From the NCBI GenBank assembly GCA_016926255.1, contig JAFGOY010000060.1, positions 1 to 64,000 of the forward strand: a stretch of DNA of 64,000 nt, written 5' to 3'. The notes under the pieces are model-generated. The model did no database searches and was not told the origin of the DNA. It worked only from the letters and a program-made list of their open reading frames with translations. The first letter of the stretch is position 1. Each line of letters begins with the position of its first letter. The position numbers and the translations under genes were made by a program. This document shows positions 6,276 through 59,555 of this stretch, piece by piece. This DNA comes from Anaerolineae bacterium. GTDB taxonomy: Bacteria; Chloroflexota; Anaerolineae; Aggregatilineales; UBA3940.

Positions 6276-8477
6276 GTGACCAGAAGAACCACGTTTCGCA
6301 CCATCGTTCTTGCCTCCTTGCTGATTTTGTTGACGGTACAGGGCTGCAACTTACCATCCAGAACGGCAAATCAATCAGCCGGATACCTTGTTAAGGCAGC
6401 CGAAGGCGGTACTTTCGAATGGCCTGATGTGGGAACACTTGAGATACCCGCTGGGGCGCTGTCTCAGGACACACAGGTGAATGCCAGCCCTTCGGGTGAA
6501 GAAGTGCCTTTCCCGCCAGAGAGTTCCTTTACATTGATCGGCGATGAGGTTGAGATAGACCTCGGCGGTGTGCCGCTCACCGGGCATCTTACCATGACCT
6601 ACACTTTACCCCCTGACACCCCCGTCGGTGACAGCACCCTCTTTATCATCGCCCGTACCTATGCGCCGGATGGGACGCCTATGGCGCTGGGGGCTATTAG
6701 AGATGGGCTGGAACTTCGTTTCCCGGTCATCGGAGAAGGTTTTTACCAGCTATTCACCATTGAAAAACCGGATTACGCTGCACTCAGCGAGAGCCTTGCT
6801 GAGATCAGAGAGCCGCTGACTGTGCCCACCTACCCGCAGGTCGCATCTGACTGGTGCAGCCCCACAGCGCTTACCATGATGGCTCAGTATCATGAAGGGG
6901 CATGGCCTGCTGGCGGCACCGGCAGCAAGTGGGGGGAGACGAGTTCCTGGTACCTGACCGGTTTGGCGCATCAACCGGCGAACTCAGGGAACTTTTTCCA
7001 CAATCTGCTCAGGGCAGCCGGTTACAGTGCCCCCATCGATGTCAGGCAGTCTTTTTCGACGGCGGACATGATTGTCATCATCTGGAACTGGGAATCGGCT
7101 ATCTGGCAGGATAATACGGCCAGTCATAATGCCGGTGATGTCGACATGGAATTTGCCGAAGAACTCTATCAGGCCTTCCGAGCTTACGTTGAATCTAATT
7201 TCTGGGGGATTTATGGCATAAGGAGGCCGGTAGCCTGGGGTTCAGGGATGATCGAACACAGCCGGGTATTGACAGGCAGCGACGGAACAAAGCTTTACTA
7301 CAATGAGACTGCCAACGGCCAACAGAATGTCGCCATGACATGGGAAAGTCACCACAATGCGGTCATGGCCTCATTGACCACTGATCCTGAGATAATCGAT
7401 ACGGTGGTGATGCTCAGTGAACCGCGCCCAGAAGAGGCGCGGCAGGGTGTCATCTGGCTTCGACCCGAAACCAGCACCAGGGGCGGTTCACTGGTGCTGC
7501 GGAGAATAGACGGCACAGAGCGTGAGGATATTTGCTATTGGTACTGGGACGGCAGCGGCACCCGCACAAGCGGCTACTACTTCGATAACCATGAGGTAAG
7601 CCCTGACCCCTGCGCCTCCCAGCCAGCGAGTGCCGAATTTGACCACTCCTTCGGCATTCAGGATGCCAATTACGAACTCTACTATGAGTACGATGTGCTG
7701 AATATCAGCGATGAATATCACAGCTATCTCGCGGCTGTGGAGGTTGAGCGGGCCAGCGGCGGGGCACCGATCCTGATCGATCACGTGGAAACAGCACTGC
7801 TGGCACCGGGAACCAGAGCGATGAGTTACAGTGGCTACAATCTGGCGGGCGCTATCCCGCTGGACATCAACCTCGGTGCGGGCCGCCATACTTTGAAGTT
7901 CACACTATGGCTCGATGGCGTTCTTCAAGATACGAAGTATGTCTTCTTCACAGTCGAGCCTTTCACCGCACCGCTGCCCGCTATGCCGACCGAGCCTCCT
8001 ATGCTGCCCCTGGTGTCAACCACACCTGACATCCCGCAGATCACCTTTCCCACCGCGACCCTGACACCCCTCCCACCTACTGCAACAGCCACCCCATATA
8101 TTCCGCCCACCGATACGCCGCAGCTCATCGTTCCGCTCACCAGAATGCCCTTAGTACCATCCTGTTCGATGAGCAGCCCGGTTCTGAGCAGCCCTGCCGA
8201 TGGGGCATGGGTCGGCTCGCTCCAACCGACGCTGGAATGGAGCTATTCTTCTCTGGTCTGCTGGCCGGATTCTTATCGTATCCAGATCGCAACCGATCAA
8301 AGGATGTCTAACATCGTTCAGACCGGCCAGACAGAAGCGAAGACTTTCATCCCGGCACCACTGACAGGCTGCACGACTTATTACTGGCGTGTGGCAGGTA
8401 TGAATGGATCGGATAGCGGACCCTGGTCACCTGTATGGTCCTTTACCCCTGGGGATGCACGCAGGTGTGGGCCGTAG
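6276..8477 (+). CDS. Large lipoprotein with ZU5-like and C39/papain-like domains
   Basis: The 733-residue protein is exported. It has an Arg-rich N-terminus, a hydrophobic segment and a lipobox-like LTVQGC, so it is likely a lipoprotein. Residues ~40-150 resemble a ZU5-type beta module (GGTFEWPDVGTLEIPAGAL). The segment YPQVASDWCSPTALTMMAQY (Cys194) resembles the catalytic-Cys helix of C39-like papain-fold peptidases; a His is available in WESHHNAVMAS, but the family fit there is uncertain. A Pro/Thr linker leads to a C-terminal fibronectin-III-like domain (SSPADGAWV...TYYWRVAG). GTG 6276 has GAGGG upstream. A surface cysteine peptidase or peptidase-like binding protein is inferred. A repeat element follows. 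Confidence 0.7.
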   Translation: MTRRTTFRTIVLASLLILLTVQGCNLPSRTANQSAGYLVKAAEGGTFEWPDVGTLEIPAGALSQDTQVNASPSGEEVPFPPESSFTLIGDEVEIDLGGVPLTGHLTMTYTLPPDTPVGDSTLFIIARTYAPDGTPMALGAIRDGLELRFPVIGEGFYQLFTIEKPDYAALSESLAEIREPLTVPTYPQVASDWCSPTALTMMAQYHEGAWPAGGTGSKWGETSSWYLTGLAHQPANSGNFFHNLLRAAGYSAPIDVRQSFSTADMIVIIWNWESAIWQDNTASHNAGDVDMEFAEELYQAFRAYVESNFWGIYGIRRPVAWGSGMIEHSRVLTGSDGTKLYYNETANGQQNVAMTWESHHNAVMASLTTDPEIIDTVVMLSEPRPEEARQGVIWLRPETSTRGGSLVLRRIDGTEREDICYWYWDGSGTRTSGYYFDNHEVSPDPCASQPASAEFDHSFGIQDANYELYYEYDVLNISDEYHSYLAAVEVERASGGAPILIDHVETALLAPGTRAMSYSGYNLAGAIPLDINLGAGRHTLKFTLWLDGVLQDTKYVFFTVEPFTAPLPAMPTEPPMLPLVSTTPDIPQITFPTATLTPLPPTATATPYIPPTDTPQLIVPLTRMPLVPSCSMSSPVLSSPADGAWVGSLQPTLEWSYSSLVCWPDSYRIQIATDQRMSNIVQTGQTEAKTFIPAPLTGCTTYYWRVAGMNGSDSGPWSPVWSFTPGDARRCGP

Positions 8478-8570: not shown

Positions 8571-10073
8571 TCACCCCGCATGTGGCAGCCGGATTGTAAA
8601 ACAGCTTCCTTCGCCGGGGGTGCTTTTCGCCTGCACTTCACCATGCATCGCCTCGACCAGTTCCTTGACCAGCGTCAGTCCCAGCCCGGTGCCCTCGGCG
8701 TGACTTTCTTTTGGCCTGTAATAGCGATCCCATACGTAGGGCAGTTCTTCCGGCTCGATCCCCTTCCCGGTGTCCCGGACCTCAATGATGAGCGCCTGCC
8801 CGTTGGTCTTGGCTGACACGACGACGATCCCACCCGGTTCGGTTCGCCGCAGCGCCGTCTGGAGCAGGTTTCGCATCACCTGCGTCATTCGATCCTGATC
8901 GGCCAGCGCGAGGGGCAGTCCCGACTCGATGTCGGTGATCATTTCCACTCTGGCCCGTTCCCACGCCTGCGGCCTGATCGACTCCACCAGCCCGTTGATG
9001 ATGTCGAGCACGTCTACCGGTTCTGGCCTGAGCGCCAGTTGATCGACCTCGACCCGCGCCAGCGTAAAGATATCCTCGACCAGAACCTGTAATCGTCTGG
9101 TCTCCTCTCGAAGGTTATCCAGATGCCGGTCGTTGTTCAGTTCGTCCAGTCCCCGGCTGATCGCTGCAATCGGCTCCTTGATTTCGTTGGCCAGTCCATC
9201 GAGCAGCGCATGCTGCGAGTCAAAAAGCCGTTTGTTCGTCACCTGCTCGATCCGCAGATCGGTTGTCACCCGGTCGAGTTCCGCTGCCAGCTTGTGGATG
9301 TCGCCCCGGAGCTGTGCCAGTTCGTCCTCTTCGTCATCGGTTTCCGGGAAAGGCCGCTCCCCATCGTTCAGCGCGATGGTATCGCGCACCAGCGTTTCGA
9401 TCCGCCGCGTGTTTCGCCGCGCCGATATTCTCGCCAGGGGAAGCGCCAGCACCAGTGCCAGCAGTGTTGCCCCCGCCGATATACCGGCAGTCTTGGCGAG
9501 GCCGGGGATCACGTTGGCGACCACCATCGTGATGATCGAAGCAAAACTCCAATCGAACCCCGCCGGGACGAACGCCGGTTTGATCAGCCACAGCGCCCCG
9601 CCGAAGGTGATCGGCAGCGCCAGCAGAGCCACGACGCTGAGCTTTGCCTGTGTCAGCCGCCATGAATAAGAGCGCCGGCACTGATCCTGCCACCGCCTTG
9701 CACTATGAATCGCCCCCCGGATGATCAGCGCCGCAGCCCCCCCCGACAAAGCCAGCGCGATGGTGGGTAGCTCCGCAGCCGTTCCCCGCTTGATAATCGT
9801 CATCGCCGAGAGCGCCAGTGCCCCTGATACCAGGTTGAACGCCGATGCACAGGCGAGTTCGTAAGCCGTGACATTCGTTTCATCCGGGTCAGGCCGCAGC
9901 CGGATCGCGAACACCAGTGCCCCGACAGGCGCAAGCAGCGCCAGCCCGGAATGCAGAACCGGGGTCGATACCCCGGCTTTGGCGATGAATAAAGGAATCG
10001 CCAGCAGCCCGATCACAACCGCCGAATCGGTCACCGCGCGCCAGGGAGCCGCCGAAAGCCACCGCCGCTTCAT
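8571..10073 (-). CDS. Degenerate sensor histidine kinase (no phospho-acceptor His)
   Basis: The 500-residue protein has about six hydrophobic helices in its first ~215 residues, then a HAMP-like linker, a dimerisation helix pair and a HATPase_c domain. The G1 box (DTGKGIEPEELPYVWDRYYR) and G2 box (GTGLGLTLVKELVEAM) are intact, so ATP binding is plausible. The H box, normally SHELRTPL, reads ANEIKEPI, with Asn296 in place of the phosphorylated His. In the N box (NLLQTALRRT), Thr406 replaces the Mg-binding Asn. A conventional kinase reaction is therefore unlikely. Its ATG overlaps the stop of the upstream DNA-binding gene by 4 bp (ATGA), so the two are translationally coupled. Confidence 0.85.
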   Translation of the reverse strand: MKRRWLSAAPWRAVTDSAVVIGLLAIPLFIAKAGVSTPVLHSGLALLAPVGALVFAIRLRPDPDETNVTAYELACASAFNLVSGALALSAMTIIKRGTAAELPTIALALSGGAAALIIRGAIHSARRWQDQCRRSYSWRLTQAKLSVVALLALPITFGGALWLIKPAFVPAGFDWSFASIITMVVANVIPGLAKTAGISAGATLLALVLALPLARISARRNTRRIETLVRDTIALNDGERPFPETDDEEDELAQLRGDIHKLAAELDRVTTDLRIEQVTNKRLFDSQHALLDGLANEIKEPIAAISRGLDELNNDRHLDNLREETRRLQVLVEDIFTLARVEVDQLALRPEPVDVLDIINGLVESIRPQAWERARVEMITDIESGLPLALADQDRMTQVMRNLLQTALRRTEPGGIVVVSAKTNGQALIIEVRDTGKGIEPEELPYVWDRYYRPKESHAEGTGLGLTLVKELVEAMHGEVQAKSTPGEGSCFTIRLPHAG

Positions 10074-10405
10074 TGATCGCCCCTTAGCCGGTAGCCCGCG
10101 CCCCACACCGATTCGATAATCTCACTGTGTTTGCCAAGCTTCATTTTGATCCGCTCAATCGTCTTGTAGACCGTCTGCTCGCTCCCGGTCTGATCCTCCC
10201 AGACGATCTCTTCGAGGTACGCACAGTTGAATGTCCGCCCGGGGTGTTGGAGCAGAAGATGCAGCAGCCTGAACTCGACCCGGCTCAAATCCAGCAGGAC
10301 CCCGTCGACTCTCACCTGCCGCCGGTCAGGTCTCAGTGTGATCGGCCCCCACTGTAATTTCTGGCCGGAGCCGTTTGCCTTCTTCGTATGTTCTGCGCGA
10401 TCCAT
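10070..10405 (-). CDS. Stand-alone OmpR-type winged-helix regulator without receiver domain
   Basis: All 111 residues are accounted for by a short basic leader and one OmpR/PhoB C-terminal winged helix. LDLSRVEFRLLHLLLQHPGR is the N-terminal strand and helix 1, TVYKTIERIKMKLGKHSEII is the recognition helix region, and SVWGAGYRLR is the closing hairpin. There is no phosphorylatable receiver in the gene or upstream of it. The ATG at 10405 is preferred over TTG 10408 because GAGGGAG is then 7 bp away. It is the first gene of a two-gene unit with the degenerate histidine kinase. Signal transfer by protein contact, not by phosphotransfer, is the simplest inference. Confidence 0.88.
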   Translation of the reverse strand: MDRAEHTKKANGSGQKLQWGPITLRPDRRQVRVDGVLLDLSRVEFRLLHLLLQHPGRTFNCAYLEEIVWEDQTGSEQTVYKTIERIKMKLGKHSEIIESVWGAGYRLRGDQ

Positions 10406-10711
10406 CAAGCCGCTCCCTCGTGCGGTTTGCAGCCACCCCGCTACTATAATATGTCACCATTTCCATTTCGACTAGTGTTTCGCGGTCTAAATATCACTAT
10501 GTTTATAGGTTCATCGCGAAACACTCAAGCAGTTGTGCAAGTCAGGCGGCTAACCCTGTCCGTATTTCAGCCCAACTGCACTGGTGGTTTGTAATGGCTG
10601 ATTTTAAGATCACAGAAAGTGTGTGCCCACTGACTCAAAACTAATTGTTGACTGATATGGTATTATTTTAGAAAGAATTAACCGATGTTCATAAGCAGGG
10701 GAGAGGGTACA
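10406..10711. other. Divergent intergenic region with a long inverted repeat
   Basis: This region separates the minus-strand regulator/kinase pair from the plus-strand GlsB-like gene. It contains perfect 11-bp arms AGTGTTTCGCG (10474-10484) and CGCGAAACACT (10515-10525) around a 30-nt centre. TATAAT-like strings occur at 10444-10449. No gene was recognised. Confidence 0.5.
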
Positions 10712-10954
10712 ATGAATTTCGTGTGGCATATCCTTATAGGCGCTCTGGCTGGATTTTTAGCCGGGCAGGTATGGAAGGGGAAGGGCTTCGGATTGGTCGT
10801 CAACATCATTGTTGGTATTGTTGGCGGCTTTATCGGTGGCTGGTTATTCGGACTGTTGGGTATTGGCACCGGAGGTGGTTTGATCGGCAGCCTGATCACG
10901 GCGGTCGTCGGTGCATTGATACTGCTGGTTGTGCTGAATCTGCTTAAAAAATAA
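10712..10954 (+). CDS. GlsB/YeaQ/YmgE family stress-response membrane protein
   Basis: An 80-residue, very hydrophobic, Gly-rich protein with three predicted helices, the usual make-up of this transglycosylase-associated family. The pattern HILIGALAGFLAGQV, GFIGGWLFGLLGIG and a last helix VVGALILLVVLNLL is characteristic. The family is linked to general and acid stress in other bacteria, without a defined biochemical activity. ATG 10712 is preceded by AGGGGAGAGGG. A strong terminator follows, so the gene is probably monocistronic. Confidence 0.9.
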   Translation: MNFVWHILIGALAGFLAGQVWKGKGFGLVVNIIVGIVGGFIGGWLFGLLGIGTGGGLIGSLITAVVGALILLVVLNLLKK

Positions 10955-59153: not shown

Positions 59154-59555
59154 ATGACCGATATGCTGCCTCCGTTAACCCACATCCTGGTGATCGACGA
59201 CGATCCCAACCTGCTTCTGCTATTGACCAAGATGCTGGCTCGCATAGGTGCAAAAACAACAACCGCCGAAACCGGAGTCGAAGGTCTGGATTTACTCGAC
59301 AAAGTCAACTATGACTTATTGATTCTGGACCTGATGCTCCCGGATGTCGACGGGTATGAGATTTTAAGGCGTTTGCGAGAAGAAACCCGCTACGACAAAC
59401 TGCCCATTCTGATCCTGTCTGCCCGCGCCGACCCGGATGCGATCAGCAGGGGGCTGGGGCTTGGTGCTGACGGCTACCTGACCAAGCCGTATCTACCGAA
59501 CACGCTGACCAGCCGGGTCAGGACTTTACTGGCTCAAGGCCGAAAAACCACGTAA
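59154..59555 (+). CDS. Single-domain response regulator
   Basis: The 133-residue protein is one receiver domain with no output domain. It has the acidic cluster D15-D17 (VIDDDPN), phospho-acceptor Asp59 (ILDLMLPDVDG), the switch Ser (LSARADP) and Lys111 (LTKPYLP), so it should accept phosphate. It may act as a phosphate sink or bind a partner protein. AGAGGA is found upstream of the ATG. Its kinase is not adjacent. It ends at a strong terminator. Confidence 0.93.
   Translation: MTDMLPPLTHILVIDDDPNLLLLLTKMLARIGAKTTTAETGVEGLDLLDKVNYDLLILDLMLPDVDGYEILRRLREETRYDKLPILILSARADPDAISRGLGLGADGYLTKPYLPNTLTSRVRTLLAQGRKTT

Follow-up and report, generated by a model that had tools for sequence, protein, structure and literature searches.

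The window, a 64,000-nucleotide stretch of contig JAFGOY010000060.1 from an Anaerolineae bacterium, encodes on its minus strand an OmpR-type two-component gene pair in which the catalytic residues of the kinase and the receiver of the regulator are both missing. It is a real, well-supported co-degenerate pair, known from one assembled genome. The first gene encodes a receiver-less regulator of 111 aa (10070..10405, minus strand), with a short flexible N-terminal tail followed by a complete predicted OmpR/PhoB-type winged helix, and the second a membrane pseudo-histidine kinase of 500 aa (8571..10073, minus strand), whose start overlaps the regulator stop by 4 bp (ATGA). The kinase starts with the ATG at 10073 and the regulator with the ATG at 10405; this last position and a third changed catalytic residue, Glu300, correct an earlier sequence-only reading of the pair. 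Both frames are open over 611 codons, with no stop and no frameshift, there is no N between positions 8000 and 11500, and the codon usage and GC3 of the pair are normal (within the range of the window's genes). Here it is proposed, with moderate confidence, that the pair has diverged from an ordinary OmpR-type two-component system and now operates without phosphotransfer. The pair is probably functional and independent of phosphorylation, as inferred from its sequence.

The kinase matches the Pfam profile HATPase_c with 91.8 bits (cut-off 26.4), and its HisKA match of 20.1 bits is below the cut-off of 26.9. Its AlphaFold model shows six predicted membrane helices and a long helix that continues into the first DHp helix, followed by a second DHp helix and the ATPase domain; pLDDT is mostly >90 for the ATPase domain and about 60 for the DHp region. 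The top Foldseek matches of the model are histidine kinases, including the pseudokinase DivL, and RetS is among its closest solved folds. The N-terminal membrane input domain, with helices at residues 10-236, corresponds to 9366..10046 (minus strand, as all kinase features below), the first DHp helix with the degenerate H-box (residues 286-315) to 9129..9218 and the ATPase (CA) domain (residues 351-498) to 8580..9023.

In an alignment of the window kinase with 23 class-wide relatives, the H-box aligns without gaps, reading A-N-E-I-K-E-P in the window and S-H-E/D-L-R-T-P in the relatives. Three catalytic positions that are invariant in all 23 relatives are altered: the phospho-accepting His is Asn296 (codon 9186..9188), the Thr four residues past it, which is the phosphatase/kinase residue, is Glu300 (9174..9176), and the N-box Asn is Thr406 (8856..8858). 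The sequence-only reading had correctly identified Asn296 and Thr406, as well as the intact G1 box (D434-T-G-K-G-I439, 8757..8774) and G2 box (G461-T-G-L-G-L466, 8676..8693). Within the first DHp helix, the His closest to Asn296 is His288, 8 residues upstream of it in a column that is Arg in 22 of the 23 relatives, and therefore not a shifted phospho-acceptor; this speaks against the possibility, raised in that reading, that another His might align with the HisKA site. Where a histidine kinase carries a phospho-accepting His in the H-box and a HATPase_c domain with N, G1, F and G2 boxes, the window protein has Asn296 and an ATPase domain with G1 and G2 in which the N-box Asn is replaced. Its missing catalytic residues make it a pseudo-histidine kinase in the sense of a homologue lacking at least one catalytic function (PMC12632262). 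Judging from these residues, the protein would be catalytically inactive, and phosphatase action is unlikely, given Glu300 and a partner without a receiver. The N-box Asn is a Mg-nucleotide ligand in this ATPase fold, and its loss makes nucleotide binding uncertain. The proposal that the protein binds ATP through its G1 and G2 boxes is thus weakened, and binding is doubtful, since even DivL, which keeps all ATP boxes, binds ATP poorly (PMC4211667).

In the regulator, Trans_reg_C (57.7 bits) is the sole Pfam match above cut-off, with no Response_reg match in its 111 aa and, in a tblastn search with the receivers of ten relatives, no receiver remnant upstream of the gene, in agreement with the initial description of a winged helix only. 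Of the two parts of an OmpR-family regulator, the receiver with its phospho-accepting Asp is thus absent and the OmpR/PhoB winged-helix domain is present, with a complete predicted fold. The AlphaFold model has the four-stranded sheet, three helices and C-terminal hairpin of a PhoB/OmpR winged helix (pLDDT about 80-93 in the domain), preceded by about 12 disordered residues of the tail. Canonical regulators from the class and phylum search have winged helices with up to 50% identity to this domain. The winged helix of the pair has lost 21 of the 49 sites scored as conserved, many of them in the recognition helix and a few in poorly aligned columns of the tail, so the DNA target has probably changed or binding has weakened. 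A possible target is a divergently encoded small membrane protein of the Transglycosylase-associated/GlsB-YeaQ type (10685-10954; 51 bits). By tblastn, the window has only one strong receiver match, a separate receiver at 59175-59531 on the plus strand, 49 kb away, which is 35-41% identical to the receivers of relatives.

A 50-bp inverted repeat upstream of the regulator (10474-10525) was considered as its operator and rejected, since it is part of a two-hairpin repeat of about 110 bp (approximately 10472-10581), with two copies at gene ends, and is therefore an interspersed repeat and not a regulon. The repeat has the form CTAGTGTTTCGCG-N30-CGCGAAACACTC, followed by CAGTTGGGCAA and GCCCAACTG, which are separated by about 25-30 bp. 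The genome carries four copies whose 10-bp arms are perfect and whose spacer is exactly 30, and no copy with 1-3 arm mismatches was found; the C17 copy has an inverted 30-bp core between its flanks. The Rfam search of the region upstream of the regulator returned nothing of note.

The N-terminal 299 residues of the kinase, from the membrane domain to the H-box, were used to search for relatives in 61 close genomes, 154 of the order, 396 of the class and 400 of the phylum. This query found distant relatives only (best 62 bits, 29-30% identity), and in the named genomes the kinase search returned only two distant kinases, both from proteobacteria (27-28% identity). Full receiver-plus-winged-helix regulators adjoin 21 of the 23 relative kinases, which implies an ordinary two-component system as the ancestor of the pair. 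The canonical OmpR-type systems of the family (L013, L024, L025, L032, L037 and others) have the same layout of membrane domain, long helix, DHp and ATPase domain, and, as in the window, the regulator gene directly before the kinase gene. In contrast to the window pair, they have the His, the Thr, the N-box Asn and the full receiver. In trees with outgroups, the kinase groups within the two-component family (support 100/99) and the regulator within the corresponding group of regulators (support 94/94); the trees place the pair in the family but not at an exact position within it. The end branches of the pair are very long, with 2.33 and 2.34 changes per site against medians of 0.64 and 0.34, indicating that kinase and regulator changed together. 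No intact copy of the family was found in the same genome, so the two genes are not a redundant duplicate; a candidate paralogue (L002) belongs to another family and has a normal His.

The gene pair with the same substitutions, which the sequence-only reading had proposed to look for in relatives, was not found: the searches of the 154 order, 396 class and 400 phylum genomes, covering about 850 genomes of the phylum, returned no orthologue of the pair. The regulator search in class and phylum genomes returned as short frames only one case at a contig edge and one split near a run of N. The latter (a 128-aa frame in G657) is a receiver regulator and was rejected as a second receiver-less case, and a 697-aa frame (L037) that resembled a possible winged-helix fusion is a canonical regulator whose frame stays open upstream. 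Another kinase of the family with a long branch (L019, 886-2406, in G031) departs at 17 of 92 conserved sites and has kept its His and its receiver partner.

The losses in the kinase are concentrated in one part of the protein. The window kinase has lost 24 of the 89 sites that are conserved in ≥90% of the relatives; in a leave-one-out comparison the other kinases of the family lose 0 to 7, except the long-branch L019, which loses 17. With domain borders set by hand from the alignment, the lost sites are 10 of 23 in the HAMP/linker, 10 of 12 in the first DHp helix, 1 of 6 in the second DHp helix and 3 of 45 in the ATPase domain, the last including the Mg-binding Asn and leaving 42 sites kept. 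The difference between linker plus first DHp helix (20/35) and ATPase domain (3/45) is significant (Fisher, p = 7.7e-7). Similarly, the ratio of identity to relatives over identity among relatives is 0.89 in the ATPase domain and 0.34 in the first DHp helix; in the membrane input domain, mean identity is 18% to relatives and 24% among them. The first DHp helix is the receiver-docking and phosphotransfer surface, and its erosion therefore fits the loss of the receiver.

This pattern bears on the reading of the pair as a relic, in which the receiver was lost, the kinase then became pointless and both genes are decaying, a rather unlikely alternative. It would account for relatives with normal residues and a receiver and for the pair being found in no second genome, and the two-hairpin repeat immediately upstream of the regulator might be the trace of a rearrangement in which the receiver was lost. 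However, neutral decay should not spare one domain, which disfavours simple decay, and the ATPase domain is conserved as in working kinases. Recent decay is disfavoured by the open 611 codons, the normal codon usage and the very long end branches, and the 4-bp overlap has also been kept. In simulated neutral drift of 0.1 substitutions per site, both frames stayed stop-free in 0.6% of runs, and the same drift changed about 17 of the 89 conserved sites against the 24 seen; 24 changes on average would need drift of >0.1 substitutions per site, so the change needed exceeds what a short stop-free neutral period could give. The losses may have arisen at a late stage of the long branch. The sequence-only reading had named relatives with the normal His and a receiver as a sign of recent decay; such relatives do exist, which tells partly against that reading, but they are distant, and a recent event is disfavoured by the long branch with its intact frames.

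Judged by residues and domain content, canonical phosphotransfer is impossible on both sides, and this, together with a loss pattern that disfavours simple decay, upholds the altered mechanism of the sequence-only reading, except for its ATP-binding step. A more specific form of the proposal, put forward tentatively, is that the two-component pair was converted as a unit to a phosphorylation-free system, in which the pseudokinase controls a separate receiver-less regulator by contact. The membrane protein would still sense via its membrane domain, and conformational changes would pass down the long helix to a DHp/ATPase core that is a maintained fold, presumably unable to phosphorylate or dephosphorylate. 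Its partner would be a bare DNA-binding winged helix, translationally coupled to the kinase. Gene order and overlap suggest, as a guess, control by direct contact, most likely with the winged helix held or released at the membrane.

Pseudokinases such as RetS and DivL act on another histidine kinase or a response regulator, and the window protein may likewise form mixed dimers with another kinase or bind a foreign response regulator, the winged helix then being free-standing, constitutively active and merely sharing the operon. The presence of DivL and RetS among the closest solved folds, the maintained ATPase domain and about 80 kinase-matching loci in the genome, which make partners plentiful, are consistent with this alternative. 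It is nonetheless unlikely, as the joint acceleration of both genes suggests continued mutual dependence and the window helix has lost 10 of 12 conserved sites, whereas DivL keeps a conserved patch around its replaced His, since it still binds a receiver (PMC4211667). That phosphotransfer survives otherwise, through another kinase His such as His288 in the same helix or through a receiver in trans among the other response regulators of the genome, is very improbable, because His288 is off the catalytic position, other catalytic residues have been replaced by Glu300 and Thr406 and the regulator offers nothing to phosphorylate canonically.

Each half of the phosphorylation-free arrangement proposed here has known counterparts. 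In ToxR/CadC-type membrane regulators, an OmpR-type winged helix is under the phosphorylation-independent control of a membrane partner or domain, although there it is fused to a membrane anchor and in the window it is a separate soluble protein. DivL-type pseudo-histidine kinases share with the window kinase a replaced phospho-acceptor, a kept fold and no expected autokinase activity, but DivL keeps the N-box and the receiver-binding patch and works with receivers, whereas the window pair lacks the N-box Asn, the patch and the partner's receiver. The His is missing in 0.9% of HisKA domains (722 of 76,471; PMC12632262), and with about 80 kinase-like loci approximately one His-less kinase is expected in the genome, so the loss of the His alone is unremarkable. 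Receiver-less members of response-regulator families are known singly, such as HrpR/HrpS (PMC2222644) and NnaR (PMC12632262); HrpR/HrpS have a sigma-54 type output, and the portions of these sources consulted describe no paired degenerate kinase for them. Pseudokinases and receiver-less regulators being each already known, what would be new is the loss of both ends of the phosphorelay in one operon; no description of it was found in the literature searched, with most subscription papers outside the search scope. If the proposal is true, the histidine kinase fold would be able to convey a signal to DNA with no phosphate involved, and the pair would offer a simple two-protein system to test phosphate-free signalling.

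The same membrane input domain is also found at another locus (L029, 1333-2865), fused to a nucleotide-cyclase-like domain and not to a kinase core, which suggests that it is a membrane sensor module, mobile and not named in Pfam.
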